NCBI RefSeq assembly: GCF_000252855.1
Contig: NC_017045.1
Location: 1-64,000, forward strand
Source: Riemerella anatipestifer ATCC 11845 = DSM 15868
GTDB taxonomy: Bacteria > Bacteroidota > Bacteroidia > Flavobacteriales > Weeksellaceae
Length of the DNA: 64,000 bases
Direction: 5' to 3'
Shown: one piece after another, positions 9,874 to 32,043 of the stretch
Layout: each line of letters starts with the position of its first letter
How positions within the stretch are numbered: the first letter of the stretch is position 1
Position numbers and translations under genes: made by a program
Notes under the pieces: generated by a model
What the model saw: the letters and a program-made list of their open reading frames with translations, nothing else
Database searches by the model: none
What the model was told of the DNA's origin: nothing

Positions 9874-10070
9874 GCCGCTAACATAGTATTTGCAAAAGGC
9901 GGGGTTAAGTGCAGGGTTGAAAATTTGGTAATATTTAGTCGCTCCTGCTTTTCCGTATTACTTTTTTCTTAAATTAGCAATACGGAAAAAGCATCCGCTT
10001 CGGTTGTGCTGAATTGAACTTATCGTCCAATTCAAACCCGCCCTTCGGCAATACCCTGACCGTTACCAGC
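9874..10070 (+). repeat. attC-like site 10 (chimera of types B and A)
   Basis: Left box GCCGCTAAC matches the cassette 9 start GTTAGCGGC. The left arm and internal stem are type B, but the right end CTTCGGCAATACCCTGACC is type A. Right box GTTACCAGC. Confidence 0.87.
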
Positions 10071-10530
10071 TATACACTCCAAACATTTCGCTAAGGACTT
10101 GAAACGATTAAAAAACGCTCTAAATTGTGAATAATAAGAAACTGAACTTAGACCCAGCCGAGCAGTGCGTGTTAGGGGGTCTAAATTCATTTTCTACAAC
10201 GGACGACTTAAAAGCATATTTTTGAATGAGCCGACTCCTAAAAAATGTTGGAGAGTACAGCTGATAACTTTTAACGCTCGACAGAATGTTGGACTTTTAA
10301 AACCTAAAAAAGAGGAAAAATCCCAAAGGAAAGGAACTCAAACTGACGAAAAGCGGAAAAACGAATGGATTTCGGAACTGAAAACAGAAAAAGAATAACT
10401 AAAAAACTGTGGAACTGACTAAAGGCTGAAAAACTAAACGGTCAAATTGTGGACTTGAACGCTGAAAACGTGAAAAATGTGCGGACTGAAAACTATGCGG
10501 AAAAGACACCACGCTGAAAAAAATAGTACA
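10071..10530 (+). other. Cassette X, copy 1: non-coding cassette
   Basis: About 460 bases without a credible gene. A 77-codon frame at 10165-10398 has no start context and is broken in copy 3, so it is not counted. The best feature is a hairpin TTAGACCC/GGGTCTAA (10148-10184) followed by TTCATTTTCT. It looks identical to 24700-25158 and similar to 19915-20367. It could encode a small RNA or carry regulatory signals; that is inference. Confidence 0.7.
10148..10184 (+). ncRNA. Conserved hairpin in cassette X
   Basis: TTAGACCC pairs perfectly with GGGTCTAA around a 21-base loop. The same element with changed but still pairing arms is at 16402-16439 in an unrelated non-coding cassette. Each copy is preceded by AGAAACTGAA and followed by TTCATTTTCT. 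Confidence 0.45.
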
Positions 10531-10667
10531 GCTGGTAACAAGGTATTGCCGCAAGCGGGGGATATTTGCATTTTAGAAACTTTTGTTTATCTTTGAAGTA
10601 TGGTATTTTAGTTGAAGTTAGGTGCTGAGAAGCCCCGCCTTCGGCAATACCCCGACCGTTGTAATCA
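10531..10667 (+). repeat. attC-like site 11 (type A)
   Basis: Left box GCTGGTAAC matches the cassette X start GTTACCAGC. Right box GTTGTAATCA, one base different from the box of Y copy 1. Confidence 0.9.
10566..10595 (+). promoter_or_regulatory. Promoter inside attC-like site 11
   Basis: TTG 10566-10568, spacer 19, TATCTTTG 10588-10595, aimed at cassette Y copy 2. Confidence 0.68.
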
Positions 10668-10682
10668 ATTTAGGAAAACCTT

Positions 10683-11060
10683 GTGGGAAAAATAACGGAA
10701 AAAATAAATGAAGATTTAAAAGCTGATTTTGTGTTACTAATGCACCCACGTTCTAAGTGGTTGTTTTGGAAATACTTTCGGAAATATCGAATAGAAGGCT
10801 CTTTGTGGAATATCTCTGAATTTATTGTTTACAAAGGAATAGAGGTCGAATTTATGTTTTATTCACGAGAAAACGAATTATTATTTCAAGAAACCTATGA
10901 ATTAGACCGCTGGTTACCTCCTCGAACTAAACGAGAATTGATAATAGATTTACCTGAATTAGTGAAGAAAACAGAACGGAAATTTAACCATTTTGATTAC
11001 CGAATTACTAAATGGATAGAAGTATCAGGAGTGGGAGGACATAATACCGTTAAACCCTAA
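10683..11060 (+). CDS. Conserved 125-residue protein of cassette Y, copy 2
   Basis: Second copy of the unrecognised 125-residue protein, GTG start. It differs from the other two at two residues (Ile instead of Glu at 8, Ile instead of Ser at 44) and at several silent positions, so it is the older duplicate. The 180 bases between its stop and site 12 match those after the other copies, except for small changes. Confidence 0.72.
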   Translation: MGKITEKINEDLKADFVLLMHPRSKWLFWKYFRKYRIEGSLWNISEFIVYKGIEVEFMFYSRENELLFQETYELDRWLPPRTKRELIIDLPELVKKTERKFNHFDYRITKWIEVSGVGGHNTVKP

Positions 11061-11240
11061 CTCTGTCAAATTTTTCTGTTTGAATCATATAAGTTATTGA
11101 TTTTCATATTTTTACAACACAGTGCAGAATAACCTAATTATTGCATTAAGTATTAAAAATCAAAATGTTACAATGGTTAAATTGTCTGAACAATCGGATT
11201 TAGGGTTAAGTATAAAGATAAAGAAATAAAGAAATAAAAC

Positions 11241-11377
11241 TGGTTACAACAAGGTATTGCCGCAAGCGGGGTTAATTGTTTTTTTAGAAAATTTTGTTTA
11301 TCTTTGAAGAGTGGTATTTTAGTTGAAGTTAGGTGCTAATAAGTCCCGCCTTCGGCAATACCCGGACCGTTAGCCGA
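11241..11377 (+). repeat. attC-like site 12 (type A)
   Basis: Left box TGGTTACAAC; the start of this copy is GTTGTAATCA, so one pair is mismatched. Right box GTTAGCCGA. Confidence 0.9.
11276..11306 (+). promoter_or_regulatory. Promoter inside attC-like site 12
   Basis: TTG 11276-11278, spacer 20, TATCTTTG 11299-11306, towards the restriction-modification cassette. Confidence 0.65.
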
Positions 11378-11457
11378 CACCCCACGAGCGATCGTGCAAA
11401 AATCGACATTCCGACAAATTTCAGCTTTGGAGTAACTTCAAACAAAAATTAAAATTG

Positions 11458-11465
11458 TATATTTG
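11458..11465 (+). promoter_or_regulatory. -7 box upstream of the GATC restriction-modification operon
   Basis: TATATTTG fits the Bacteroidota -7 element; no clear TTG lies at the right distance. It argues that translation of the first gene starts at 11490 and not at the TTG inside this box. Confidence 0.5.
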
Positions 11466-11489
11466 GAACGTATTTTGAATAAAAATGAA

Positions 11490-12416
11490 ATGACTAAATA
11501 TAAAATAGCAAAACCGTTTTTGAAATGGGCAGGTGGAAAAACACAACTCATTTCTGATATTGAACGAACTCTACCAACAAACATAACGCAGAAGAATTTC
11601 ACATATATTGAGCCATTTGTGGGTAGTGGGGCAGTACTTTTTTGGGTACTCAACAACTTTGCAAACCTAAAAAAAGCTGTAATTAACGACATCAACGAAG
11701 ATTTAATTAACACTTACAAAACCATTGCGGACAGACCAAAAGAGTTGATTTCAATTTTGCAAATAATGCAAAATGAATTTCACGCTCTGGAAGGAAACGA
11801 AGAAAAGAAGAAACTCTATTACTACCAGAAAAGAGAATTATACAATTCAAGAAAAGAAGAACAAAGCGGACAAGCCGCCCTGTTTATTTTTCTCAATCGT
11901 ACTTGTTTTAATGGTTTGTATCGAGTGAATAGAAAAAATGAATATAATGTTCCGATGGGAGGTTATAAAAAACCAACTATTTGCGACAAAGAAAATATTT
12001 TAGCAGTTAGCAACGCATTGCAAAAAGTAGAAATTTTGTGTGGCGATTTTGAGCAAACGCTTGATTTTGCAGAGCAAAATACGCTTTTCTATTTTGATCC
12101 ACCATACAAACCATTAAGCGAAACATCGAGTTTCAACTCTTATGCAAAAGATGAATTTAACGACAGCGAACAAATCAGATTAAGAGATTTCTGCAACAAA
12201 CTTGATATTTTAAATCATATATGGATTTTAAGTAATTCTGATGTGAAAGGAAAAGATGAAAATGATAATTTCTTTGACGATTTATATTCTGATTTCAACA
12301 TTCAAAGAGTTGATGCAAGAAGAAGTATAAATGCAAATCCAGAAAAAAGAGGAAAACTAACAGAGTTATTAATTACAAATCAAGTAAACAACGAAGAATA
12401 TGTCAGAGCAATTTAA
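11490..12416 (+). CDS. DNA adenine methyltransferase, DpnM/Dam type (alpha class)
   Basis: 308 residues from ATG 11490. Motif I region FLKWAGGKTQL, then EPFVGSGAVLFW, acidic motif NDINEDLINTY, and catalytic DPPYKPLSE with a downstream SSFNSY, all as in DpnM/M.MboI enzymes that methylate adenine N6 in GATC using S-adenosylmethionine. The C-terminal NADARRSINAN-like segment (RVDARRSINANPEKR) is typical of Dam. First gene of cassette 12; its stop overlaps the nuclease start by 17 bases. GATC specificity is inferred from the family. Confidence 0.9.
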   Translation: MTKYKIAKPFLKWAGGKTQLISDIERTLPTNITQKNFTYIEPFVGSGAVLFWVLNNFANLKKAVINDINEDLINTYKTIADRPKELISILQIMQNEFHALEGNEEKKKLYYYQKRELYNSRKEEQSGQAALFIFLNRTCFNGLYRVNRKNEYNVPMGGYKKPTICDKENILAVSNALQKVEILCGDFEQTLDFAEQNTLFYFDPPYKPLSETSSFNSYAKDEFNDSEQIRLRDFCNKLDILNHIWILSNSDVKGKDENDNFFDDLYSDFNIQRVDARRSINANPEKRGKLTELLITNQVNNEEYVRAI

Positions 12417-13239
12417 AATCTTTTTATCGCAACTTTCAGAAACTAACGCAACGCTTGATTATTTCGCAGATTTTAAGAAAATAAGGAACAATGTAAACAA
12501 AATTGCAATCAAACTTAACCAATTGAATTATTTAATTGGCAAAGAAAATTTGAAAGAAGCGGTAATAGAACTTTATGAAGAAAATTCAAAAGTTTTTGAA
12601 GTATTGGACATCTTGATTGCTATTCGCAAAAACAAAAACGCTAAAACATTCAACAACAAAGGCGAAATAGTATTGTTAGACACTTATTTCACCTCGCCTG
12701 AACTGATTTTGGAATACATTGAAGAAACGGGATTGGCAGAAGTTTTTAGAAACAAAGATGTTACTAATTTAGTTGACTATGTTTTTGGAATAGAGGTTGG
12801 TTTAGATACAAATGCACGAAAAAACAGAGGGGGTGACAATATGTCAAAAGCTGTTTCACTCATTTTTGACAAAGCAGGAGTTTTCTACAAAAAGGAAGTA
12901 AATAATACAATCTTTCCAGAAATCATAAGTTTAGGTGCAGATGTAAAACGTTTTGATTTTGTCATTAAAACCAAAAAGAAAACTTATTTAATTGAAACTA
13001 ATTATTACAATAGTGGAGGTTCAAAATTAAATGAAACAGCAAGATCTTATTCTGATGTTGCTCCTAAAATTAACCTATATGAAGGTTACGAATTTGTTTG
13101 GATAACTGATGGACAAGGTTGGTTTTCTGCAAAAAACAAATTAGAAGAAGCATATAACATAATTCCAAGTTTGTACAATTTGATAACACTTGAGGATTTT
13201 ATCAAGAAAATACAAGAAGAAACTGTAATAGAATTTTAA
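12400..13239 (+). CDS. Type II restriction endonuclease, DpnII/MboI family
   Basis: 279 residues, close to the DpnII length. The N-terminal half is helical; the catalytic core is KRFDFVIKTKKKTYLIETNY followed by YNSGGSKLNETARSY, characteristic of GATC-cutting DpnII/MboI enzymes. It lies between two methyltransferases, starts inside the first and ends right before the second. It would cut unmethylated GATC in incoming DNA. Confidence 0.9.
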   Translation: MSEQFKIFLSQLSETNATLDYFADFKKIRNNVNKIAIKLNQLNYLIGKENLKEAVIELYEENSKVFEVLDILIAIRKNKNAKTFNNKGEIVLLDTYFTSPELILEYIEETGLAEVFRNKDVTNLVDYVFGIEVGLDTNARKNRGGDNMSKAVSLIFDKAGVFYKKEVNNTIFPEIISLGADVKRFDFVIKTKKKTYLIETNYYNSGGSKLNETARSYSDVAPKINLYEGYEFVWITDGQGWFSAKNKLEEAYNIIPSLYNLITLEDFIKKIQEETVIEF

Positions 13240-14139
13240 ATGATAGTACCTTATTTCAAATCTGATGACAAAAACTTTTATCTTCTTCACGGAGATACAA
13301 TGGAACTTTTGCCAAAATTTGAACATAAGTTTGATATGGTTTTTGCCGACCCTCCTTACTTTTTATCTAACAATGGGCTTTCAATCCAAAACGGAAAAAT
13401 TGTAAGTGTAAACAAAGGGAAATGGGATAAATCTGAAGGTTTTGAATTTATCAACGACTTTAACAGAAAGTGGCTTTCATTGGTTCGCGAAAAGATGAAA
13501 GGTGATGCTACAATTTGGATTAGTGGAACAATGCACAATATTTTTTCAGTCGGGCAAATCTTGACAGAGTTAGGCTTTAAAATTTTAAACATTGTAACTT
13601 GGGAAAAGACAAATCCACCACCAAATTTTTCGTGCAGATACTTTACTTATTCAACCGAACAAATCATTTGGGCAAGAAAAACTGAAAAAGTCCCCCATTA
13701 TTTCAACTACAAGTTAATGAAGCAACTAAATGGCAATAGACAAATGAAAGACGTTTGGAAGTTACCAGCAATTGCACCTTGGGAAAAATCGTGTGGAAAA
13801 CATCCAACACAAAAACCTTTATCAGTTTTGACAAGACTTATTTTGGCTTCGACAAAACCAAACGCTTGGATTTTAGACCCACTTGCAGGAAGCTCAACGA
13901 CAGGAATTGCCGCAAATTTAGCTAACAGACGATTTTTAGGAATTGACCAAGAAGAAGAATTTTTGACAATCAGCAAGAACAGAAAATTGGAAATTGAAAA
14001 TCCAAAAATATCTGTAACATACCGACAAAAAATGGGAGGTTTCAACGACGAAAAAGAACTTGAATTATTTCTTGTCGAAGAACCAAGAACAGAATATAAA
14101 AATGAATTAAAACTCGAAAACAAAAGGGCGATCGGCTAA
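13240..14139 (+). CDS. DNA adenine methyltransferase, DpnA type (beta class)
   Basis: 299 residues. Catalytic motif ADPPYFLSNNGLS lies near the N-terminus (about 31-43) and the AdoMet-binding motif DPLAGSSTTGIAA near residue 210, the permuted order of beta-class enzymes such as DpnA, which can also methylate single-stranded GATC and aids survival when the system enters by transformation. It starts with ATG directly after the nuclease stop. Its own TAA stop is part of the left box of site 13. Confidence 0.9.
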   Translation: MIVPYFKSDDKNFYLLHGDTMELLPKFEHKFDMVFADPPYFLSNNGLSIQNGKIVSVNKGKWDKSEGFEFINDFNRKWLSLVREKMKGDATIWISGTMHNIFSVGQILTELGFKILNIVTWEKTNPPPNFSCRYFTYSTEQIIWARKTEKVPHYFNYKLMKQLNGNRQMKDVWKLPAIAPWEKSCGKHPTQKPLSVLTRLILASTKPNAWILDPLAGSSTTGIAANLANRRFLGIDQEEEFLTISKNRKLEIENPKISVTYRQKMGGFNDEKELELFLVEEPRTEYKNELKLENKRAIG

Positions 14140-14269
14140 CATCGTATTGGCAAAATGGCGGGTTAAGTCCTAATATAAAAGCAAGTAGTTCTATTTAACA
14201 TTAATGCTAAATTCAATATTTTGTGTTTTGATTTACGCTACTTCGCCAATACGTAAACCGTTATCTGCA
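14132..14269 (+). repeat. attC-like site 13 (type C)
   Basis: Left box TCGGCTAAC matches the cassette 12 start GTTAGCCGA. Arms CGTATTGGCAAAATGGCGGG and CTTCGCCAATACG; right box GTTATCTGCA. It overlaps the stop codon of the upstream methyltransferase. Confidence 0.87.
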
Positions 14270-14295
14270 ACCATTCAAAAAAAACGCAAAAAACT

Positions 14296-15126
14296 ATGAA
14301 AAGAATATTTTTGATAATTTTCTCTTTGATTTTATGTGATTTATATTTTTCACAGGATTATAAAATAATATATGAGTTTAAGTGGAAATCGGATAAATCG
14401 GACAGCAATTACAATTTAGAATTAATGGCTTTAACTACAAATTCAAAACTTTCCCAGTTTGAGGCTCTGTATAAATTTAAATATGACTCCTTAAAAACGG
14501 ATTTAAGAAACAAGGGTATTAGAAGTGTCCCAAGCCCAAGACATGAATGGAAATTCCAACAGTTGATAGAAAAGAATTTACAGAGTGGAAACATATTGGT
14601 AGAGCAGGATATTTTTGATAAAACTTATATCACTAAATACACCTGTAAACCTGAATGGAAAATTTTAAAGGACAAAAGAGAGGTTTTTGGCTACAACTCC
14701 CGTAGTGCAGAAACAAATTTTGGTGGAAGGAAATGGATAGCTTGGTTTACTGACGAAATTCCAATTACTGACGGTCCATATAAATTTTATGGACTTCCTG
14801 GATTAATTTTAAAAATAAGCGATTCTGAAGAAAACTTTATTTTTGAAGCTAAGGCATTGACACGGGAAAAAAGTGACATATCAAAACGCAACAGAGAATC
14901 AGCCATTGTAAAACTAACTCCAAAGCAATGGGAATCTTTTTGGGAGAAATTTCAGAAAGACCCTTCGAATATTTTTGCAAACCTAAATGAACAAGGTGCG
15001 ACTTACAGTTATGTTTATAACGGCAAAGATGTGAATACAAAGGAAGCTCGTGAATCTTTCAATAAAGTAGAAAAAGAAAAAATTAATTTCTTTAAAAACC
15101 CCATAGATTTAAAAAATTGTGAATAA
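14296..15126 (+). CDS. GLPGLI family secreted protein
   Basis: 276 residues with an N-terminal signal peptide (LIIFSLILCDLYFSQ). The name-giving motif YKFYGLPGLILKI lies near residue 163, after GGRKWIAWFTDEIPI. The GLPGLI family is common in Bacteroidota, where it is thought to be exported; function unknown. Only gene of cassette 13; a truncated relative closes the array at 40583. Confidence 0.88.
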   Translation: MKRIFLIIFSLILCDLYFSQDYKIIYEFKWKSDKSDSNYNLELMALTTNSKLSQFEALYKFKYDSLKTDLRNKGIRSVPSPRHEWKFQQLIEKNLQSGNILVEQDIFDKTYITKYTCKPEWKILKDKREVFGYNSRSAETNFGGRKWIAWFTDEIPITDGPYKFYGLPGLILKISDSEENFIFEAKALTREKSDISKRNRESAIVKLTPKQWESFWEKFQKDPSNIFANLNEQGATYSYVYNGKDVNTKEARESFNKVEKEKINFFKNPIDLKNCE

Positions 15127-15130
15127 TGCC

Positions 15131-15329
15131 TGCAGATAACATAGTATTTGCAAAAGGCGGGGAGGAGTAATGAATTGAAAAGTAGAAATATTTATCCGCA
15201 TCTGCTTTTCCGTATTACTTTTTTTCTTAGTTTAGCAATACGGAAAAAGCATCTGCTTCGGTTTGGTTGAAATTGAACGATTGGTTTAATTTAGCCCGCC
15301 CTTCGCAAATACTTTTCCCGTTGTGCGTC
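15131..15329 (+). repeat. attC-like site 14 (type B)
   Basis: Left box TGCAGATAAC is the perfect complement of the cassette 13 start. Internal stem GCTTTTCCGTATT/AATACGGAAAAAGC; loop motif TAGTTTAG at 15228-15235. Right box GTTGTGCGTC, same as after site 4. Confidence 0.9.
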
Positions 15330-15376
15330 AGCTTAAAACGACAGCGTAAATAACAAATAGACAAAAAACAGAAAAT

Positions 15377-16195
15377 ATGAAATTTATTTATTATAACTTA
15401 CTTTTTATACTTGTAACATTAACAAGTTGCTCAAATGCATCACAACCAAACGACCCTATTCCAGAACACGAAACTTTTAAAATTCAATCTAAACAAGTTG
15501 GAGAAGAAAGAGTAATCAATGTTTGGACACCAGAAAATTATAGAGCAAGTAAAGACTCTTTGCCTGTAATGTATATGGCAGATGGTGGAATAAAAGAAGA
15601 CTTTCCTCACATTGCAAATACTTTGGCTAAACTAATTAAAGAAAAGAAAATAAAACCTTTAATACTTGTCGGAATTGAAAACACTCAACGAAGAAGAGAT
15701 TTGACAGGCTTTACAGAAGTAACGAAAGACAAAGAAATTGCACCAGTTGTTGGTGGTTCAGAAAAATTTAGAGCATTTATCAAAGACGAACTTTTCCCTG
15801 AAATTAACAAAAGATACAGAACAACGACTGAAAAAAGTATAATTGGGGAATCTGCATCAGGACTTTTTGTAATGGAAACATTTTTCCTAACACCTGAAAT
15901 GTTTGACAATTATATCGCTTTTGACCCTTCACTTTGGTGGAATAATCATTATTTGGTAAGAACAGCAAAAGAACATTTAGCGAAATTTCCAATATCAGAA
16001 AAACGGATTTGGTTTGCAGGTTCAGACGCAGAAGACGTTTCGCCTTTTACAAAAGAATTAGCTGACATTTTTAAAACAGAGAACAAAGAAAATATTAAAT
16101 GGAAATTTTCAGACGAACCAAAAGAAAAACATACGACAATTTTCAGAGCAACGAAGGAAAAAGCAATTATTTGGACACTAAACAAAACTGAATAA
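15377..16195 (+). CDS. Putative esterase lipoprotein (alpha/beta hydrolase, esterase-D like)
   Basis: 272 residues. Lipobox LVTLTSC at about residues 12-18. The core resembles ferri-siderophore/acyl esterases: PVMYMADGG strand, LVGIENTQRR, the nucleophile elbow IIGESASGLF (Ser in GxSxS) near 158, and EKHTTIF giving the probable catalytic His near 255. It likely sits on a membrane facing the periplasm and hydrolyses esters; substrate unknown. Cassette 14. Confidence 0.83.
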   Translation: MKFIYYNLLFILVTLTSCSNASQPNDPIPEHETFKIQSKQVGEERVINVWTPENYRASKDSLPVMYMADGGIKEDFPHIANTLAKLIKEKKIKPLILVGIENTQRRRDLTGFTEVTKDKEIAPVVGGSEKFRAFIKDELFPEINKRYRTTTEKSIIGESASGLFVMETFFLTPEMFDNYIAFDPSLWWNNHYLVRTAKEHLAKFPISEKRIWFAGSDAEDVSPFTKELADIFKTENKENIKWKFSDEPKEKHTTIFRATKEKAIIWTLNKTE

Positions 16196-16204
16196 AAAGC
16201 CGAA

Positions 16205-16340
16205 CGCACAACAGCAGTTTGGCAAAATGGCGGGTTCAGTGCTAAAATGAACATTTGGTTTTCAAATGAACATTAGTGCTAAATTGAAAGTAAGTGCTTC
16301 AAAATCCGCCACTTCGCCAAGCTGCGAACCGTTGCACGCA
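16205..16340 (+). repeat. attC-like site 15 (type C)
   Basis: Left box CGCACAAC matches the cassette 14 start GTTGTGCG. Arms GCAGTTTGGCAAAATGGCGG and CCGCCACTTCGCCAAGCTGC; right box GTTGCACGCA. Almost the same sequence as site 31. Confidence 0.88.
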
Positions 16341-16719
16341 ACACTACTGAAACTCACGCTACAGAAATAAAACTAAATTTTTGCGATATAAAAGAAACTG
16401 AATCCAAACCGAACGAGGATAATGTAGAGAGGTTTGAATTCATTTTCTGTTTTTTGTATTACGGAATAGAATTGACTTTTACTCGTAGTGAATTTTCAAT
16501 AGCGTTGCGTACAACAGAACATTCGCTGAATTGATTTTATAGTCGTAGTGAATATGATTCTTGTAAAAAACTGGATTGAAAATAGGGGAGAATTGAATTT
16601 GAAAAAATAGAATTGATTTTAGGAAACTGAAATTGACTGAAAATGCTTGAAAAGTTGAATTTTAAACTATGCGAATATACCAAATTGTGAATATCAAATA
16701 GAAATGGAAATGAAAGTTC
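16341..16719 (+). other. Cassette 15: non-coding cassette
   Basis: About 380 bases without a credible gene on either strand. It holds a hairpin like that of cassette X at 16402-16439 and a repeated TCGTAGTGAAT (near 16485 and 16544). Its ends are complementary (GTTGCACGCA / TGCGTGCAAC), so it is an intact cassette. Confidence 0.65.
16402..16439 (+). ncRNA. Conserved hairpin, relative of the cassette X hairpin
   Basis: ATCCAAACC pairs with GGTTTGAAT (one mismatch) where cassette X has TTAGACCC/GGGTCTAA. The flanks AGAAACTGAA and TTCATTTTCT are shared. Changed arms with kept pairing suggest selection on structure. Confidence 0.45.
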
Positions 16720-16857
16720 TGCGTGCAACACGGGTTTTGCAAAAAAGCGGGAGTGGTTTTGTTTGGACATAATGTAATTTTTATTACCTTTGTGTTGTTG
16801 GGAGAAGGTAAGTGTTTTTTTAGCCCGCTTCTTCGCAAAGCCCCACCATTATGTGCA
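16720..16857 (+). repeat. attC-like site 16 (type D, altered core)
   Basis: Left box TGCGTGCAAC is the perfect complement of the cassette 15 start. Arms GGGTTTTGCAAAAAAGCGGG and CCCGCTTCTTCGCAAAGCCC. The right core reads ATTATGTGCA instead of GTT..., a substitution at the base next to the expected crossover. Confidence 0.82.
16763..16792 (+). promoter_or_regulatory. Promoter inside attC-like site 16
   Basis: TTG 16763-16765, spacer 19, TACCTTTG 16785-16792: a consensus promoter in a type D site whose loop is unrelated to that of type A sites. Confidence 0.7.
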
Positions 16858-16881
16858 ATGTCATAAAAAAAACCGTATAAA

Positions 16882-17646
16882 ATGAATAAAATAATAACAA
16901 TTTTATCATTTCTAACTTTTTTGTTCTGCTTTTCACAAAATTCTGAAGAATTAAACAAAAAAGGAATTGAACTTCTCATCCAAAAAAAATATGAACAAGC
17001 AATTCCACTTTTATGAAAATCTGCTGAACTGGGAAACGCAGAAGCTCAATATAATCTAGGTTATTGCTATGAATTTGGAGTTGGAGTTGCAAAAGATGAA
17101 AAAATAGCAACTTCTTGGTATCAAAAATCTGCTGACCAAAACTATAATGACGGGCTTTATGCAATGATGATGGCTTATTCTGATGGGAAAGGTGTCGAGC
17201 CAAATTATGATAAAGCATTTGAGTATGCAATGAAATGTGCAAAAAACGATGATGCAACTTGTATGTTTAATGTTGTAACAGCATATAAAGATGGAATTGG
17301 AACGCCAAAAAACAAGCAAAAAATGTTAGAATGGGCAATGAAATTGGCGAAACTTAAAAACCCTGAGAATCTAAATTTGAGTGGAAGAATAACTTCGGCA
17401 AGACTTAATCTTGCTTATATGTTCAGAGATGGAATTGATGTAGAGAAAGATATTTTTAAAAGTTATATATGGTTTCTAATATACAATGAAAACAAAAGAG
17501 ATTTTTCAGTTTTTCAACAAGATGATGTTGTGAAAGAAATTCAAGAGATAGAAAAGAATTTAACAAAAAAACAAAAAATTGAAGCTATTTTAGAAGCAGA
17601 GAAAATACTTGAACGAAAATTAGTGAATTTAAAAAAAACTATATAA
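16882..17646 (+). pseudogene. Sel1-repeat secreted protein interrupted by a TGA codon
   Basis: From ATG 16882 the frame reads a signal peptide (ILSFLTFLFCFSQ), then at codon 45 (17014-17016) TGA, then continues in the same frame to 17646. After the stop come Sel1-like repeats (AEAQYNLGYCYEFGVGVAKD and relatives), helical solenoids that bind proteins. Without the stop the product would be about 254 residues. TGG to TGA at a typical Trp position is the simplest explanation. Translation restarting downstream would make a product without a signal. Cassette 16. Confidence 0.75.
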
Positions 17647-17666
17647 GTCTGAAATCTAAAAGACAC

Positions 17667-17867
17667 TGCACATAACATAGTATTTGCGCAAGGCGGGGAT
17701 AAGGTGTTGAAAATGAAAAGCAGAAATATTTAGCCGCAGATGCTTTTCAATTCAACTATTTTGAGTAATTTAGTTTCATTGAAAAAGCATCTGCTACGGT
17801 TGGTCTAAATTGAACTTTTCAGCCCAATTTAGCCCGTCTTTCGCAAATACTTTTTCCGTTAGCTGTA
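17667..17867 (+). repeat. attC-like site 17 (type B)
   Basis: Left box TGCACATAAC is the perfect complement of the cassette 16 start TTATGTGCA, which shows that the ATT at 16848 is a point change. Right box GTTAGCTGTA. Confidence 0.9.
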
Positions 17868-17892
17868 ATTTTAAAACATACCGCACTAAATA

Positions 17893-19053
17893 ATGACAAG
17901 TTCAGAAAAATATGTTTCAGAGTTATGTGAAAAATCTTTTTTGCCATTTTGGAGTTATCCAAATCCGATAGGAAAAAACAATAAAGAACTTTGTGATGTT
18001 TTAATTGTATGTGGCGACATTATAATAATAATTTCAGTTAAAGATATTAAAATGTCCAAGCATAATGATGATAGTGTTGTTTATGAAAGATGGGTTAGGA
18101 AAGCAATTGATGATTCCGTCAAACAAATTTATGGAGCGGAAAAACACATTTTAAATTCTGACGAAATTACTCTAAAAGACTATTGCACGAAGATACCTTT
18201 ACCAAAAAAAGAAAATAGAAAAATTTACAGAATTGCAATTGCATTTGGAAGCAGTCCAAATTTCCCTTTACCAATGGGTGATTTTGGAAAAGGATATGTT
18301 TCGGTTTTTGATGAAAAATCAACAAATATTATTTTAAATGAATTAGATACTATCATTGATTTTACAAAATATCTTGATGCTAAAGAGTTACTCCAAAAGA
18401 AGGCAACTATTATCGCTGCATACGAAACCGATTTCTTAGCTTTTTATTTAAGAACTGGACTTGATTTTGATGATTCAACCGATTCAATAATTTTGGATAG
18501 TAATCTTTGGGAGTCATATCAATCAAGTGCAGAATATGAATCTTGGAAAAATGAAAGTGCTGTAAGTTATGTTTGAGATATTTTTATCAAAATTCTGTTT
18601 ACAAATCAATTTAAAGATAAAATAAATAATAAAAAATTTTTGGAATATGAAGAGGCATTAAGAATAATAAATTTAGAAGATAGAATTTCAAGAATAGGAT
18701 TAGGCCTAAATTTAGAACATGCAATTAAGGATAAGGTTCAAGCTCGTATGATTCAGGCAAACAGTGATAAAGATTATACTTATGTTTTTATGCCATTATC
18801 TGAAAAAAACTGGAACATTAAAAAAGACGAATTGCTTTTGAGATGTGATGTTGCAAGATACTTGAATCCACATATTCAAAAAGTTATTGGTATTTCTGTA
18901 GGAAAGGAATTAATAAACAATCAACAGATTCCAATTTTTGATATTTGCTATATTAATGTTCCTGAAATAACTCCTGATTTTGAAAAACACGTAAAAAAAG
19001 TTCAAAAAGAACTTGGGTATTTTACAAACCCGAGGATCTCAAAAATGAAATAA
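17893..19053 (+). pseudogene. Unknown protein, nuclease-like N-terminus, interrupted by a TGA codon
   Basis: The frame from ATG 17893 is stopped by TGA at 18574-18576 (227 codons) but stays open in the same frame to 19053, giving a 386-codon original gene. The N-terminal part has ELCDVLIVCGDIIIIISVKD, an Asp...Lys pattern that could be a PD-(D/E)XK nuclease core; the C-terminal part is unfamiliar. A separate downstream start (TTG 18640) is possible but weak. Either a pseudogene or two products; I favour a nonsense mutation. Cassette 17. Confidence 0.6.
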
Positions 19054-19059
19054 GAAACT

Positions 19060-19258
19060 ACAGCTAACATAGTATTTGCGCAAGGCGGGGAGAGGCGTTG
19101 AATTGAAAAAGCCGAAATATTTAGTCGCAAATGCTTTTTAATTCAACTATTTTAAGTAATTTAGTTTCATTGAAAAAGCATCAGCTTCGGTTTGGTTGAA
19201 ATTGAACTATTGGTTCAATTTAGTCCGCCCTTCGCAAATACTTTTCCCGTTACCTGCA
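19060..19258 (+). repeat. attC-like site 18 (type B)
   Basis: Left box ACAGCTAAC matches the cassette 17 start GTTAGCTGT. Right box GTTACCTGCA. Confidence 0.9.
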
Positions 19259-19282
19259 ATTTCACTCAAAAACTATTTAAAA

Positions 19283-19702
19283 ATGAAAAAAGCATTTTAT
19301 TTATCGAGTATCATCTTTATGATTACAAGTTGTTCATCATTTTCAAAATCATCCAAAGAAACTAAATTTGGGAACGAGAGAGGCTATCAAAGCGTTTACA
19401 ATCGGGCAGTTAATTTCAAATCGTTAACTTTTGGAGACTTCAAATTCGCATTGCGAAACAAGGAATATAAAAAACTTCGTACGAATAATACAGAGTTTAA
19501 AAACATATTGTTCTATGGAAGGACTGACGAACCTGCGTATGAATATTTTGTTTTACTTAACCCAAAAGAAAAAAAAATTGACACTTCAAAATATTTTGTA
19601 AAGGATACGATTATAAAAAATAACAATTTCATTCTTCTAATTTCTAATTACGCACCAAAAAGCGATATAAAATTTATAAGCGAAAACATCTTTGAATATT
19701 GA
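19283..19702 (+). CDS. Lipoprotein of unknown function
   Basis: 139 residues from ATG 19283; the longer frame from 19196 lies in the recombination site. Lipobox IIFMITSC at about residues 10-17. Lys- and Phe-rich body, not recognised. Cassette 18. Confidence 0.75.
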   Translation: MKKAFYLSSIIFMITSCSSFSKSSKETKFGNERGYQSVYNRAVNFKSLTFGDFKFALRNKEYKKLRTNNTEFKNILFYGRTDEPAYEYFVLLNPKEKKIDTSKYFVKDTIIKNNNFILLISNYAPKSDIKFISENIFEY

Positions 19703-19715
19703 AAATAAAAGAAAC

Positions 19716-19914
19716 TGCAGGTAACATAGTATTTGCAAAAGGCGGGGTTAAATGCAGGGCTGAAAGATTTGTAATATTTATCCGCTTCTGCTTTTCAATT
19801 CAACTATTTTTATTAATTTAGTTTCATTGAAAAAGCATCTGCTACGGTTGGTCGAAATTGAACTATTCGTTCAATTTAGCCCGCCCTTCGCAAATACTTT
19901 TTCCGTTACCAGCT
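19716..19914 (+). repeat. attC-like site 19 (type B)
   Basis: Left box TGCAGGTAAC is the perfect complement of the cassette 18 start. Right box GTTACCAGCT, the start of cassette X. Confidence 0.9.
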
Positions 19915-20367
19915 ATACACTCCAAGCATTTCGCTAAGGACTTGAAACGATTTAAAAAACGCTCTAAATTGTGAATAATAAGAAACTGAATTCAGACCCA
20001 GCCGAGCAGTACGTGTTAAAGGGTCTAAATTCATTTTCTACAACGGACGACTTAAAAGCATATTTTGAATGAGCCGACTCCTAAAAAATGTTGGAGAGTA
20101 CAGCTGATAACTTTTAACGCTCGACAGAATGTTGGACTTTTAAAACCTAAAAAAAGAGGAAAAATCCAAAAGGAAATAACCTCAAACTGACGAAAAGCGA
20201 AAAAACGAATGGATTTCGAAACTGAAAACGAGTAACCTAAAAACTACGGAACTGACTAAAGGCAGAAAAACTAAACGGTCAAATTGTGGACTTGAACGCT
20301 GAAAATGTGAAAAACGTGCGGACTGAAAACTATGCGGAAAAGACACCACGCTGAAAAAGATAGTACA
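19915..20367 (+). other. Cassette X, copy 3: diverged non-coding cassette
   Basis: Same element as at 10071 and 24700, with scattered substitutions and small indels (for example one T fewer near 20060 and a shortened 3' part). The hairpin at 19992-20028 keeps CAGACCC/GGGTCT pairing. The small frame present in the other copies is broken here, supporting a non-coding cassette. Confidence 0.7.
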
Positions 20368-20505
20368 GCTGGTAACAAGGTATTGCCGCAAGCGGGGTTA
20401 ATTGTTTTTTTAGAAAAATTTGTTTATCTTTGAGGTGTGGTATTTTTAGTTGAAGTTAGGTGCTAATAAGCCCCGCCTTCGGCAATACCATGACCGTTAG
20501 CTGCA
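20368..20505 (+). repeat. attC-like site 20 (type A)
   Basis: Left box GCTGGTAAC matches the cassette X start. Right box GTTAGCTGCA. The right arm ends CCATGACC instead of CCCTGACC. Confidence 0.9.
20402..20432 (+). promoter_or_regulatory. Promoter inside attC-like site 20
   Basis: TTG 20402-20404, spacer 20, TATCTTTG 20425-20432, towards the HEPN-like gene. Confidence 0.68.
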
Positions 20506-20535
20506 ATCTTTTCGCATAACTCACAGATATTTGAA

Positions 20536-21411
20536 ATGGGAACTAAGATAACATACAAAAGTCTTGGACATGATCCAAACGAAGATTATAGATGGGTAAC
20601 TAAAAGCTTAAAAAAAGAAGGAAAAGTAGCTAATTCTGAAAAAGAACTTAAAAAATTTCTAAAAGATCCTAAAAATCATATTATTCAAATTGGAAAAAAG
20701 GATTTGTATGCAGTAAACAAACTTAAATTAAAGAATAAAATGTTCTTACTGCCAGAAGGAAATCCCGTAACATACTATTATTCTATTGCATATGATATTT
20801 TAAATCAAATAGAAGAAGCCAAAATGTTACTTTTAGACAGTTTAGAAAAAAATCAAAGTAAATATAAATGGCATCCTGCAGTTGCTTTTAGTTTTGTTTT
20901 CAAAGTTGGAGCTAATGCAATCATATTTTCTTTCCTAGCATTAGAAGCATTTATGAATCAATGTCTGCCAGATTATGCAAAAATAGAATTTGATGGAAAA
21001 TTAGTCGATAAAAATATAATTCAGAAATATTCTTCTTTTGAAACTAAATTTAAAACCATTATTCCTCAAGTTACAAAAAAAGATTTTCTAACTGAGCACC
21101 CAAGAAAAGCAGAAGTGATTGTGAAAATTAAAAAACTTCGAGACGAATTGACTCATTTAAAAGAAATGAGAAAAGACGGATTTGTTGCTTATGAAGATAT
21201 ATATAACCAAATTTTAAATGTAGATTTAAAAAAAATCGTTAACACAGTAAAATTTTACATTAATTATCATAGTCCGAAAACAATTCAGAATTATAGACGA
21301 AATAAGAAAACTACACAACAAGAGAATCAAAAGAAATTAAAAGTAATATCGCAAACTTTTGGTGAAGACGAAAATGGAAAATATTTAAAATATTATTATG
21401 AAGACATTTAA
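20536..21411 (+). CDS. HEPN-like protein
   Basis: 291 residues, very Lys-rich, mostly helical, no signal peptide. The C-terminal half has RDELTH at residues 202-207, the R-x4-H motif of HEPN ribonucleases, and a preceding helix ALEAFMNQCLPDY typical of HEPN-like four-helix bundles. HEPN proteins often act in toxin-antitoxin or abortive-infection systems; no partner is present. The N-terminal 70 residues are unfamiliar. Cassette 20; nuclease activity is inferred. Confidence 0.68.
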   Translation: MGTKITYKSLGHDPNEDYRWVTKSLKKEGKVANSEKELKKFLKDPKNHIIQIGKKDLYAVNKLKLKNKMFLLPEGNPVTYYYSIAYDILNQIEEAKMLLLDSLEKNQSKYKWHPAVAFSFVFKVGANAIIFSFLALEAFMNQCLPDYAKIEFDGKLVDKNIIQKYSSFETKFKTIIPQVTKKDFLTEHPRKAEVIVKIKKLRDELTHLKEMRKDGFVAYEDIYNQILNVDLKKIVNTVKFYINYHSPKTIQNYRRNKKTTQQENQKKLKVISQTFGEDENGKYLKYYYEDI

Positions 21412-21419
21412 CATAAGAC

Positions 21420-21617
21420 TACAGCTAACATAGTATTTGCAAAAGGCGGGGAGAAGTGTTGAATTGAAAAGCGTAAATATTTATCCGCAAATGCTTTTCA
21501 ATTCAACTATTTTTAATAATTTAGTTTCATTGAAAAAGCATCTGCTTTGGTTGGTTGAAATTGAACTATTGGTTCAATTTAGTCCGACCTTCGCAAATAC
21601 TTTTTCCGTTGGCGGTC
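21420..21617 (+). repeat. attC-like site 21 (type B)
   Basis: Left box TACAGCTAAC; the cassette 20 start is GTTAGCTGCA, so nine of ten positions pair. Right box GTTGGCGGTC. Confidence 0.9.
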
Positions 21618-21668
21618 ATTGTAGAGTGACACATAAAAAATGCGACTATGAAATGACAAATAAATGAA

Positions 21669-22175
21669 ATGACAAATAACTTAGACAACTTAATTTCCAT
21701 TTTACCATTCGCTTTTCTAATCCACAATATTGAAGAAATATTTGGAATGGAAAGATGGACGAAATCGATTTCTAAATTCTATCCCCAACCTGTTACAACA
21801 AGACAATTTTCAATTGCGGCAGGACTTTTTACTTTTTTAGGATTTGTCCTTATATTGACAAAAAAATATTATCAGACAGAGCAGCAATATTTACTGACAA
21901 TTACAGGATTTGCAGGGATGCTTTTGTTAAATGTATTTTTTCCTCACACAATTGCAACCATATACCTAAAAAAATATTCACCGGGATTAATCACTGGGCT
22001 TTTGCTTAACTTTCCGCTGACGACTTTTATTTTGTGGACAATTTATAACTCTAATAACCTTCCTGTTCGACAGATGGCTATCGCCATTATTCTTGGGAGT
22101 ATTCTTGGGGTTTTGCTTGCTTTTATATTTCTAAAAATTGGTAAATTCGTGGACGACAAACTAAAAAAAGAATAA
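21669..22175 (+). CDS. HXXEE domain membrane protein
   Basis: 168 residues, 5-6 membrane segments. The N-terminus holds LIHNIEEIFGMERW, the H-x-x-E-E motif of this family, and FFPHTIATIY holds a second conserved His. Function of the family is unknown; the conserved polar residues in the membrane suggest metal or lipid chemistry. Cassette 21. Start ATG 21669 chosen; an ATG at 21664 is out of frame. Confidence 0.8.
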   Translation: MTNNLDNLISILPFAFLIHNIEEIFGMERWTKSISKFYPQPVTTRQFSIAAGLFTFLGFVLILTKKYYQTEQQYLLTITGFAGMLLLNVFFPHTIATIYLKKYSPGLITGLLLNFPLTTFILWTIYNSNNLPVRQMAIAIILGSILGVLLAFIFLKIGKFVDDKLKKE

Positions 22176-22205
22176 GAAAGGTTGTATTGAAATAAGAACA
22201 ACGAA

Positions 22206-22340
22206 CCGCCAACAAGGTATTGCCGCAAGCGGGGTTATTTCTTTTTTAGAAAATTTTGTTTATCTTTGAACTATGGTATATTGGTTAAAGTTGGGTGCTA
22301 AGAAGCCCCGCCTTCGGCAATACCCGAACCGTTATACGAC
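22206..22340 (+). repeat. attC-like site 22 (type A)
   Basis: Left box CCGCCAAC matches the cassette 21 start GTTGGCGG. Right box GTTATACGAC. Confidence 0.9.
22261..22268 (+). promoter_or_regulatory. -7 box inside attC-like site 22
   Basis: TATCTTTG is intact, but the -33 TTG of the other type A sites reads TTT here (22238-22240, spacer 20), so the promoter is probably weaker. Confidence 0.5.
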
Positions 22341-22413
22341 ACCACTTAAAAAAATCAGCATAAATTTTGAAATAACGTAAATGATTTGTATTTTTACACG
22401 TAATTTGAATTTT

Positions 22414-22659
22414 ATGAATACTAAACTAACTTTAAACTTAAATAAAAGCATAATTGAGAGTGCAAAAGATTATGCTAAGGAAAATAGAGTGAGTCTTTCA
22501 AAACTTATTGAAAATTATTTGAATGCATTGACTAAAAAGGAGTCCAAAAAAGTTGATGTAAGTCCTCTTGTGGAGAGTTTAACTGGAATAATTCCCCATA
22601 GCTCTGAAAATGAAACAAATGAGGATTACTATGAATATTTAAGAGAAAAATATTCATAA
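22414..22659 (+). CDS. Antitoxin of a PIN-domain toxin (DUF6364-like)
   Basis: 81 residues from ATG 22414 (an upstream in-frame ATG at 22381 adds an unlikely N-terminus). N-terminal ribbon-helix-helix pattern TKLTLNLNKSIIESAKDYAK followed by SLSKLIENYL, as in DUF6364 antitoxins. The C-terminal acidic tail (NETNEDYYEYL) probably wraps the toxin. Its last base is the first base of the toxin start codon. Confidence 0.83.
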   Translation: MNTKLTLNLNKSIIESAKDYAKENRVSLSKLIENYLNALTKKESKKVDVSPLVESLTGIIPHSSENETNEDYYEYLREKYS

Positions 22660-23063
22660 TGGAAAGAGTTTTTGTTGACACAAATATCGTTTTAGACTTG
22701 CTTGAAAAAAGAGAAAATTTTTATCAAGAAGCACAAGAATTGTTTACAATGGGAGACCAAAATAAAGTAAAGCTATTTATCTCTGCGCTAACAATTGCAA
22801 ATGTTCATTATCTACTTTTCAAACATTTAAAAATGGAAGCCAGAAAAGCTATTTCAAAATTTAAAGTTCTTGTAGAAGTTTTGCCAATTGATGATAAAAT
22901 AGTGGAACTTTCACTTGCTTCAGATTTTACTGACTTTGAAGATGCGATTCAATATTATACAGCAATTGAACACGGAATGGAAGTAATAATTTCAAGAAAC
23001 AAAAAAGATTTTAAAAATATAAGTTTGCCTGTCTTAACCGCAAATGAATATTTAAAACGTTAA
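22659..23063 (+). CDS. PIN-domain ribonuclease toxin (VapC-like)
   Basis: 134 residues. PIN acidic residues are visible: VDTNIVLDLL at the N-terminus, an acidic residue in the middle helix, and SDFTDFEDAIQYYTA plus ISRNKKDF near the C-terminus. Such toxins cut RNA using Mg2+. It overlaps the antitoxin stop by one base. Cassette 22. Confidence 0.86.
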   Translation: MERVFVDTNIVLDLLEKRENFYQEAQELFTMGDQNKVKLFISALTIANVHYLLFKHLKMEARKAISKFKVLVEVLPIDDKIVELSLASDFTDFEDAIQYYTAIEHGMEVIISRNKKDFKNISLPVLTANEYLKR

Positions 23064-23071
23064 ATTGTGGC

Positions 23072-23211
23072 GTCGTATAACAAGGGTTTTGCGTCAGGCG
23101 GGCTGAAGTACAAAATTCAACGGCAGTTTTTCAATTAAACATTAGTAATAATATTGGCTTTTGTGCTTCGATTTCCCGCCCGAACGCAAAGCCGTCGGGA
23201 TGTTATCTGTA
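23072..23211 (+). repeat. attC-like site 23 (type D)
   Basis: Left box GTCGTATAAC is the perfect complement of the cassette 22 start. Arms GGGTTTTGCGTCAGGCGGGC and CCCGCCCGAACGCAAAGCC; the spacer before the right box is GTCGGGAT instead of CCGACC. Right box GTTATCTGTA. Confidence 0.86.
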
Positions 23212-23242
23212 AGTTTAACAAAATATCGCTAAAAAAGCAAAA

Positions 23243-23665
23243 ATGAGAAAAACCTTAATAACCTTAATTTTATGTTTTGCTATTTTTTCTTGTAATAAGA
23301 ATGATTACATTTTAGAAAGTAAAATTAGTGCTGAAATTATTCAAAAAAAAGAATTGAATCTTTCAAATTATAATGATTTTGAATGGGATTCGTTGATAAT
23401 CATTAGCCCCTATTCAAGTCTTGAAAAAATTGCAACTGAAAACAAACTTAACTTAGAGAATGTTAGCGAATCAATAGAGTCTTTGGATGACATAAATTTA
23501 ATAATATTCTTAAAAGATAGAAAGGCTGTAAAAACTTGTGAATTGAAACGCATGTATGGGGATTTTAGTGGAATCTATGGACAAATTATTCCTAAAAATA
23601 AAGCAAATTTTTATATGACTGGAGATATTTTTCCTAAAAATCCTGCTAAACTTCACTTGAAGTAA
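23243..23665 (+). CDS. Lipoprotein of unknown function
   Basis: 140 residues. Lipobox CFAIFSC at about residues 11-17. The body LNLSNYNDFEWDSLIIISPY recalls small Bacteroidota lipoproteins that cassettes and polymorphic loci often carry. Role unknown. Cassette 23. Confidence 0.75.
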   Translation: MRKTLITLILCFAIFSCNKNDYILESKISAEIIQKKELNLSNYNDFEWDSLIIISPYSSLEKIATENKLNLENVSESIESLDDINLIIFLKDRKAVKTCELKRMYGDFSGIYGQIIPKNKANFYMTGDIFPKNPAKLHLK

Positions 23666-23673
23666 AGAAAACC

Positions 23674-23871
23674 TACAGATAACATAGTATTTGCAAAAGG
23701 CGGGGTTAATGAAGGGTTGAAAATTTGGTAATATTTATCCGCAAATGCTTTTCAATTCAATTTTTTTATTTAATTTAGTTTCATTGAAAAAGCATTTGCT
23801 TCGGTTGCTCGAAATTGAACGAAAGGTTCAATTTAGCCCGCCCTTCGCAAATACTTTTTCCGTTGTGCGAA
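23674..23871 (+). repeat. attC-like site 24 (type B)
   Basis: Left box TACAGATAAC is the perfect complement of the cassette 23 start. Right box GTTGTGCGAA. Confidence 0.9.
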
Positions 23872-23900
23872 ATATTGACAGACCTAACACAGAAGAAACT

Positions 23901-24554
23901 ATGAGAGCAATTTTAACAATTTTTTTAACATTATTTTTAGGAGCAAAAGTTTTTGCGACAGCTCAATATCCTGACAAAATAATCTATAATGGAAAAGAAT
24001 TTAAATTACATAGCAATCCGTTAGAAACTTATTTTGAAAAGAATCCCGACAAAAGACCAAAAGGCGGAATTATGTCAACAGCATTGTGGCGTGGTTATGT
24101 TGCGACCTTTGAAGTAAAGGACAACCAATTGTTTTTAAAGGACATTGAAATTCAATACCACGATACTACATCAAAAGAATCTTATCCATATAAATGGCGT
24201 AGTGTTATTAATGAAGTATTTCCTAACAACGAAAAGATAAAAATAGATTGGCTGACGGGACTACTGGTAATACCACACGGAAAACTTGTTAATTATGTTC
24301 ATATGGGTTATGGCTCTACTTACAAAAACTACATTTTATTAGAAATTGACAAAGGGGACTTAAAAAAGGAAAAGTATTTTAAATACAAAGAGTACGAAAT
24401 GTTTAAAGAAAGACAGTTTCAAGTTTTCAAGCAGACAGATGAATACAAAAAGATAAAGGCAGACTTGCAAAAAGACGGAAGCTCGGACGAATTTATTGAC
24501 TCATTTTTACGAAGTTTTGTAACTGAGTACACTTCTAAAATATTGACAGAATGA
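23901..24554 (+). CDS. Secreted protein of unknown function
   Basis: 217 residues from ATG 23901; the longer frame from 23745 crosses the recombination site. Signal peptide LTIFLTLFLGAKVFATA, no lipobox. The body includes NGKEFKLHSNPLETYFEKNP and WLTGLLVIPHGKLVNYVHMG, seen in small periplasmic proteins of Gram-negative cassettes. Cassette 24. Confidence 0.75.
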   Translation: MRAILTIFLTLFLGAKVFATAQYPDKIIYNGKEFKLHSNPLETYFEKNPDKRPKGGIMSTALWRGYVATFEVKDNQLFLKDIEIQYHDTTSKESYPYKWRSVINEVFPNNEKIKIDWLTGLLVIPHGKLVNYVHMGYGSTYKNYILLEIDKGDLKKEKYFKYKEYEMFKERQFQVFKQTDEYKKIKADLQKDGSSDEFIDSFLRSFVTEYTSKILTE

Positions 24555-24561
24555 GAAATAC

Positions 24562-24699
24562 TACGCACAACAAGGTATTGCCGAAAGCGGGATTGATTTG
24601 CATTTCCAAAACTTTTGTCTACCTTTGAACTATGGTATTTTAGTTGAAGTTAGGTGCTAATAAGCCCCGCCTTCGGCAATACCCTGACCGTTACCAGCT
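24562..24699 (+). repeat. attC-like site 25 (type A)
   Basis: Left box TACGCACAAC; the cassette 24 start is GTTGTGCGAA (nine of ten pair). Left arm GCCGAAAGCGGG is slightly altered. Right box GTTACCAGCT. Confidence 0.9.
24598..24627 (+). promoter_or_regulatory. Promoter inside attC-like site 25
   Basis: TTG 24598-24600, spacer 19, TACCTTTG 24620-24627. The loop differs from the other sites at several spacer positions, but both boxes are kept. Confidence 0.66.
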
Positions 24700-25158
24700 A
24701 TACACTCCAAACATTTCGCTAAGGACTTGAAACGATTAAAAAACGCTCTAAATTGTGAATAATAAGAAACTGAACTTAGACCCAGCCGAGCAGTGCGTGT
24801 TAGGGGGTCTAAATTCATTTTCTACAACGGACGACTTAAAAGCATATTTTTGAATGAGCCGACTCCTAAAAAATGTTGGAGAGTACAGCTGATAACTTTT
24901 AACGCTCGACAGAATGTTGGACTTTTAAAACCTAAAAAAGAGGAAAAATCCCAAAGGAAAGGAACTCAAACTGACGAAAAGCGGAAAAACGAATGGATTT
25001 CGGAACTGAAAACAGAAAAAGAATAACTAAAAAACTGTGGAACTGACTAAAGGCTGAAAAACTAAACGGTCAAATTGTGGACTTGAACGCTGAAAACGTG
25101 AAAAATGTGCGGACTGAAAACTATGCGGAAAAGACACCACGCTGAAAAAAATAGTACA
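24700..25158 (+). other. Cassette X, copy 2: non-coding cassette
   Basis: By eye identical to 10071-10530, including the hairpin (24776-24812). It is again followed by a copy of cassette Y, so X-Y order is shared by both loci. Confidence 0.7.
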
Positions 25159-25295
25159 GCTGGTAACAAGGTATTGCCGCAAGCGGGGGATATTTGCATT
25201 TTAGAAACTTTTGTTTATCTTTGAAGTATGGTATTTTAGTTGAAGTTAGGTGCTGAGAAGCCCCGCCTTCGGCAATACCCCGACCGTTGTAATCA
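25159..25295 (+). repeat. attC-like site 26 (type A)
   Basis: Same as site 11, including the right box GTTGTAATCA. Confidence 0.9.
25194..25223 (+). promoter_or_regulatory. Promoter inside attC-like site 26
   Basis: TTG 25194-25196, spacer 19, TATCTTTG 25216-25223. Confidence 0.68.
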
Positions 25296-30737: not shown

Positions 30738-30936
30738 TACAGATAACATAGTATTTGCAAAAGGCGGGTTTAAGGTGTTGAATTGAAAAGCAGAAATATT
30801 TATCCGCATATGCTTTTCAATTCAACTTTTTTTAATAATTTAGTTTCATTGAAAAAGCATCTGCTATGGTTGGTCGAAATTGAACGAAAGGTTCAATTTA
30901 GTCCGACCTTCGCAAATACTTTTCCCGTTAGCAGAA
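30738..30936 (+). repeat. attC-like site 32 (type B)
   Basis: Left box TACAGATAAC; the cassette 31 start is GTTATCTATA (one mismatch). Right box GTTAGCAGAA. Confidence 0.9.
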
Positions 30937-30987
30937 ATTTTACTCAAAACATCGAAAGTTAATATTAACCTATTTACTAAATTAAGT

Positions 30988-32043
30988 ATGCCAAAAAATT
31001 ACTCTTTATTAGTTGAGAGCCTCCAAAAGAGGTCTAATCCTGACAATATAATACTAGAAAAGTCTCTTTCTAATGAATTGTCGACTATTAGATATAATGA
31101 TATTCTTCGTTATATAACTTTAGCAATGAATGGTGTGGAACAATCATATACAGAACGAAGTAAAGAAGCAGGGGAAAGAGTTAAAAATCACTTGAAAGAA
31201 ACATTGAATGATGTTGTTTATAGATATCAAGGTTCTGTAATGACGAATACCCATATTAAAGGTAATAGTGATATTGATTTATTAGTAATTACAGATAAGT
31301 TTTACACTTTTGATAGAGCGGGAATAGAAAAAACTTTAAGTGATTTCAACCAAACTTATTATCTTAATCAGATTCAAATACAAAGACTCAAAAACGAATT
31401 ATCAGGAGGAGGTTATAGTACAGCTTTAGAGGATTTAAGAACCAATCGATTAAAGTCTGAGAAGAAATTAAAAGATGTTTATGATATATGTGATATAACA
31501 CACGCAAAAGCAATAAAAATTACAAACCAAAGCTTGAAGAGAGATGTAGATATTGTAATTGCTAATTGGTATGATAATGTTAATTCTGTAATTAATGGTA
31601 AAAATTCTGATTATAGGGGAATACAAGTTTATAACAAAGACACAAATTCAAAAGGAAAACAAGATTATCCATTCCTAAGTATTAAAAGAATTAATGAGCG
31701 TAGTTCTGACACTAACGGAAGATTAAAAAAGATGATAAGATTTTTAAAAAATGTAAAAGCAGATAGTGGAAAAGAAATTAATTTATCTAGTTTTGATTTT
31801 AACGCTATTTGTTATGATATAGATGTGAAAATATATAAAAATTTGAGCAAATATTTTTTAGTTCCAGTTATCTATAACCAATTACTCAGATTAGTAACTA
31901 ACGAAACTTTGGCGAATAATCTAAAGTCCGTAGATGAGCACGAATATATTTTCAGAGATAAACCAGAAAAATACAAGTCATTAGGACTACTATTAGAAGA
32001 AGTTACAGTTATTTACTTAGATTTAAAACCCCAGCTATTATAA
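30988..32043 (+). CDS. CD-NTase (CBASS cyclic-dinucleotide synthase)
   Basis: 351 residues from ATG 30988; the in-frame extension to 30880 is site sequence. Nucleotidyltransferase motifs: GS at residues 81-82 in RYQGSVMTN, the metal-binding DID at 94-96 in GNSDIDLLV, and the third Asp in [11 protein letters not shown] near 185-187. This is the CD-NTase pattern of CBASS antiphage systems, where phage infection triggers cyclic-nucleotide synthesis. Synthases paired with STING effectors typically make cyclic di-GMP. The TIR-STING gene follows with a 1-base overlap. Cassette 32. Confidence 0.87.

Follow-up and report, generated by a model that had tools for sequence, protein, structure and literature searches.

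The 64,000-nucleotide stretch analysed here, which we call the window, comes from the genome of Riemerella anatipestifer ATCC 11845 = DSM 15868 (G000), a single contig of 2,164,087 bases. An integron cassette array spans ~2.1 to 40.5 kb of the window and holds ~35 cassettes arranged head to tail, which start with TTRNNNN (R') directly after an attC site and end with the complementary R''. Four cassettes, all read on the + strand, carry no gene: three copies of one that we call X (10063..10658; 19906..20496, which has diverged; and 24691..25286) and cassette 15 (16332..16848). They were delimited by their boundaries together with a scan for open reading frames (ORFs); the first copy of X, for example, opens with the first T that follows the upstream attC and closes where its own attC ends, and its R' (TTACCAG) pairs with its R'' (CTGGTAA). 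The copies of X in the window partly sit within larger duplications. The array apparently runs on past the contig junction to a left edge at ~G000:2148.5 kb (L210), where the first cassette is X again, a fourth copy at G000:2148.57 kb.

X and cassette 15 have in common an imperfect hairpin of 53–59 nucleotides (nt) with a 17-pair stem. A sequence-only reading of the window had placed this hairpin in the three copies of X and in cassette 15, and all four were located: at 10137..10195 in X copy 1 (18-nt arms, 23-nt loop), at 16393..16448 in cassette 15 (18-nt arms, 20-nt loop) and, by direct reading of the sequence and a pattern search, at 19981..20039 and 24765..24823 in X copies 2 and 3; these intervals are given without a strand. 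The consensus is 5'-AGAAA c TGAAT c CAGACC - loop 17-23 nt - GGTCTG a ATTCA t TTTCT-3', with an A-tract before the stem and a T-tract after it. AGAAACTGAA and TTCATTTTCT had been taken for shared flanks outside the hairpin. Instead, they form the base of the stem: nine of their ten positions pair, and the other is a conserved C.T mismatch. The differing arms of cassette 15, described as pairing, do so at eight of nine positions, the remaining one being a C.A mismatch. A near-constant mismatch of the stem is C.T on the + strand and A.G on the - strand, and one C.A on the + strand is G.U on the - strand. The 2.16 Mb genome has five occurrences of the pattern AGAAACTGAA-N20-50-TTCATTTTCT, each of them within the array, and none of the reversed control pattern. 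One further AGAAACTGAA, at 29847, was a chance match with no hairpin.

The absence of genes from X and cassette 15 held up as well. Their longest ORFs have no Pfam match, and their frames are not conserved: a 77-amino-acid frame on the + strand of X is closed in the third copy, and indels among relatives are not multiples of three, so a protein-coding reading was rejected. Within the window every ORF-less cassette has the hairpin, two short ORF-less pieces in the cassette list being artefacts of the boundary rule. In 22 sampled array stretches, 44 distinct cassettes lack an ORF of 90 amino acids, and 25 of these contain the hairpin; it is in none of the 107 that have such an ORF (p = 6e-17). 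Some ORF-less cassettes of the Chryseobacterium group lack the hairpin, and some of the 19 without it resemble gene fragments.

How far does the hairpin extend beyond this array? With 16 hairpins as its basis, a covariance model (R1) was run on 320 genomes of the same family, and 17 of them, representing eight genera, had the hairpin. Across the order, 4 of 396 genomes gave a match. Three of these were known from the family search, and the fourth was a weak match in the genus Flavobacterium (L201), which we rejected for its different arms and lack of an attC. A search in the genus of G617 gave one strong new match (G900), and a phylum-wide search one more, from another Bacteroidota family (G978). 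Flavobacterium croceum also has the hairpin. The same hairpins occur in a relative of the same genus (G001) and in contigs of R. anatipestifer CCUG25054, and BLAST located cassette X (93.5% identity), in attC context, on the 4.8-kb R. anatipestifer plasmid NZ_CP081933.1 (L228). This plasmid is recorded as non-mobilizable and also carries a predicted erm(F). A search of phages with cassette X gave no match, and exact-pattern matches outside Flavobacteriales were mostly due to chance, with arms that do not pair.

Matches outside the window are complete or almost complete cassettes with an attC at their end, and all matches but the weak one are situated in integron cassettes, in a single orientation; genomes hold up to ~15 of them. 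Two cases depart somewhat from this picture: the upstream attC of the G978 cassette was not seen, and the G133 cassette runs into a lipoprotein-like ORF. In every cassette example the hairpin begins 59–73 nt past the cassette start, in the sense of the array. Of 55 places with the hairpin, 47 have an R' complemented at R'' under the exact rule and could be delimited as integron cassettes, 40 of these being distinct; the rest are mostly contig ends or sequence variants. An integron integrase was matched in 18 of 19 genomes. A check set beforehand asked for further covarying examples in Bacteroidota; nine cassette subfamilies, from about ten genera, supplied 32 distinct hairpins. These gene-less integron cassettes form a family, mobile among Weeksellaceae and a few other Bacteroidota, and the hairpin is its conserved core.

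The nine subfamilies are only ~60–75% identical to one another. When their heads are aligned, the arms of the hairpin alone are near-invariant, and leader and tail have diverged to ~60–70% identity. In the 32 distinct hairpins, 92.8% of cells are paired. Both sides have changed in 3 of the 17 pairs (two changes from G-C to A-T and one from C-G to T-A), nine pairs are invariant and five vary by mismatches only. The doubly changed cells number eight, all in these three pairs, against 1.3 expected in shuffles, and the structure beats column shuffles on four of five measures. The description of the hairpin as covarying stands for three pairs, and covariation is modest; since nine pairs do not vary, sequence is constrained as well as structure.

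Folding leans towards one strand. Fold z-scores of the hairpin region range from -2 to -6 on both strands, and RNA energies are better for the minus strand in all nine subfamily representatives. Folded as DNA, the bottom strand was better in three of three cases, in one marginally (-11.6 vs -8.8, -10.5 vs -8.0 and -12.0 vs -11.8 kcal/mol). Of the departures from Watson-Crick pairing, the five of transition type all read as A.C on the + strand, which makes them G.U on the - strand; not one gives a + strand G.U (two-sided p = 0.06). These data lean towards the bottom strand, be it as RNA or single-stranded DNA. The active form is probably single-stranded, and RNA would be its most likely material. 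The hairpin might be read off the bottom strand, against the direction of the array. Such an orientation is reported for sRNA-Xcc1, a small RNA encoded by a cassette of Xanthomonas integrons that has spread horizontally (PMC12444791).

The explanation that we tentatively favour, at somewhat less than an even chance, is a non-coding-RNA cassette whose hairpin would be bound by a cellular factor. The cassette would encode a non-coding RNA containing the 53–59 nt hairpin, and the factor would recognise the hairpin by structure and sequence. Several results weigh against this. A search of the hairpin region with the covariance models of Rfam 15 gave no match, and no conserved promoter was found within the cassette body on either strand. 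As for strand, the argument from departures rests on five events, and of three hairpins folded as RNA, that of X copy 1 came out slightly better on the + strand. On covariation, one slid control outscores the hairpin (0.069 vs 0.051), a result that stems from a single pair, and 9 of the 17 pairs never vary; we accordingly treat covariation as support for the structure and not as proof of it. Finally, single-stranded DNA accounts for the same data. The suggestion of a structured RNA or a site bound for its structure is supported in part. The 93% paired cells, the variable loop and the strong z-scores favour a single-stranded structure, but its arms are conserved mainly in sequence, covariation is thin, and RNA and single-stranded DNA fit alike.

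An alternative that we hold unlikely, while taking it seriously, is that the hairpin is a folded single-stranded DNA signal. It would form on the bottom strand during integron recombination or replication and recruit a factor that assists excision, capture or synthesis of the second strand, and gene-less cassettes would spread well as a result. The bottom strand is the strand of attC that folds and is recombined, and it is also the strand on which the hairpin folds better as DNA. The confinement of the hairpin to integron cassettes, its one orientation, its set distance from the recombined end and its many copies per genome agree with such a role, as does its presence in the first cassette beside intI in L182, L194 and L195. 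However, these arrays also hold ORF-bearing cassettes, which move although none of them has the hairpin (0 of 107), and no factor of this kind is known. A role tied to the first position beside attI was rejected: it holds for these three loci and for the array edge in L210, and most copies are internal to arrays. The hairpin resembles attC itself, in that attC sites too are imperfect hairpins with mismatches, a variable loop and a better-folding bottom strand. But the arms, read directly, contain no GTTRRRY/RYYYAAC cores, and the cassettes have their own ordinary attC; lacking a GTT core, the hairpin is unlikely to be a direct IntI site.

The cassettes might also act on transcription. ORF-less promoter cassettes bounded by attC are scattered in the chromosomal arrays of Vibrio and Treponema integrons, where they sometimes stand first (PMC11014356, PMC6557892), and X and cassette 15 likewise have no ORF. 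A cassette of this kind would drive the next one, its hairpin stabilising the 5' end or blocking upstream or antisense transcription. All four hairpin cassettes of the window have a consensus Bacteroidota-type promoter (TTG-N18-21-TAnnTTTG; in X copy 1, TTG-N19-TATCTTTG) in their attC, on the + strand, at 10566..10595, 16763..16792, 20402..20432 and 25194..25223, each identified as a consensus match only; the A-tract before the stem and the T-tract after it would suit this role too. Yet no hairpin cassette outside Riemerella has the consensus in its attC, and many gene cassettes of the window do, so the promoter does not track the hairpin. An intrinsic terminator would have a GC-rich stem and a loop of 3–8 nt followed by a U-tract; a search for such terminators gave no match at the hairpin, whose loop of 17–23 nt greatly exceeds that size, and neither a promoter nor an insulator role requires invariant arms. 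The Vibrio and Treponema cassettes, moreover, are defined by promoter activity, with no shared hairpin described in the text available, whereas here a hairpin is conserved across genera and no promoter is conserved in the body; in the Vibrio study, promoters were also reported to escape prediction in silico. We hold a promoter or insulator cassette slightly less likely than a folded DNA signal.

Across the array, the promoter consensus TTG-N18-21-TAnnTTTG has 17 matches on the sense strand, against 3.1 expected, and two on the reverse strand. It is present in full in many attC sites of a single type, at a nearly constant 86–95 bases before the start of the next cassette. Further positions in the window are 2904, 6077, 9179, 11276, 24598, 25897, 27560 and 35481 (also 36305). 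Judged by consensus, promoter-bearing attC sites might drive every following cassette.

Two other explanations fare worse. A double-stranded operator, with inverted half-sites bound by a DNA-binding dimer, would explain the almost invariant arm sequences. The half-sites, however, are spaced by 17–23 nt, a spread of more than half a helical turn that disfavours a rigid double-stranded dimer site, and changes in three pairs are compensated, which makes an operator very improbable. Least probable of all are functionless passengers, gene-less cassettes that were duplicated and are alike through recent transfer: copies inside one genome are often identical, and the X copies partly lie in larger duplications, but the hairpin has stayed near-invariant across nine subfamilies whose remaining sequence has drifted apart.

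The hairpin is followed by a tail of ~250–400 nt, which in X copy 1 extends up to R'' (10196..10538, + strand) and is non-coding, CTGA-rich and free of any conserved ORF. In the tails of the nine subfamilies CTGA occurs at ~20/kb and TCAG at 0.7/kb. CTGAAT is found 20 times against 2.8 expected, in all nine subfamilies, and its complement is absent. No clear periodic spacing of the TGA motif was seen in the tails, and a larger RNA fold was not apparent there in eight of nine subfamilies (z near 0; -2.7 in the remaining one). Another gene-less class (cassettes starting TTGTGCGCAATATT; L184:8565, L184:9738, L187, L188 and L190) has a CTGA-rich, non-coding sense strand and no hairpin. This shared appearance implies that tail and hairpin are separable modules.

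No intI was seen at the left edge of the large array. A tyrosine recombinase is encoded elsewhere in the genome, at G000:509978-511015 (L214, L224), with 58% identity to the intI beside attI of L195; it matches TIGR02249 with E = 2e-53, yet stays under the curated cut-off. It adjoins an acyl-CoA-dehydrogenase-like gene, and no array was seen upstream of it. This integrase may act on the array in trans. Among the gene cassettes of the array, one of 2.9 kb (11370-14260) holds a complete DpnII-type restriction-modification system, with a D12 methylase, the DpnII endonuclease and a second methylase, and another (30880-32993) combines a CBASS-type nucleotide cyclase with a TIR-STING effector, a STING defence module in the form of an integron cassette. 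In two other genomes Flavo-1 RNA (RF01705) lies near intI, at L182:4320-4411 and, directly adjoining it, at L195:4554-4629. Flavo-1 is a conserved structured RNA of Flavobacteriia and a different RNA from the hairpin.

Gene-less cassettes, promoter cassettes and one integron small RNA, sRNA-Xcc1, are already known. The last differs from the present family in its phylum and in lying with a gene, symE; our hairpin has no Rfam match. In the literature searched, which was covered in part, no gene-less cassettes were described as sharing a family of conserved hairpins, nor was any such case from Bacteroidota, a phylum whose integrons are little studied. Gene-less cassettes are usually ignored or read as promoters, and here a whole family retains one hairpin amid drift. 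We give about an even chance to the view that this family moves horizontally and carries nothing but a structured non-coding RNA, or a single-stranded DNA signal, to which a dedicated host factor binds. Such cargo would be distinct from proteins and promoters and widespread in Weeksellaceae integrons. The arm sequences and the alignment allow hairpin cassettes to be annotated. If the hairpin acts as RNA, integrons would exchange regulatory RNAs between genera; should it instead be a signal in DNA, a mobility aid would travel with some of the cassettes. Either way, a hairpin this constant across genera suggests that these "empty" cassettes are not junk and hold either a structured RNA or a signal in folded DNA.
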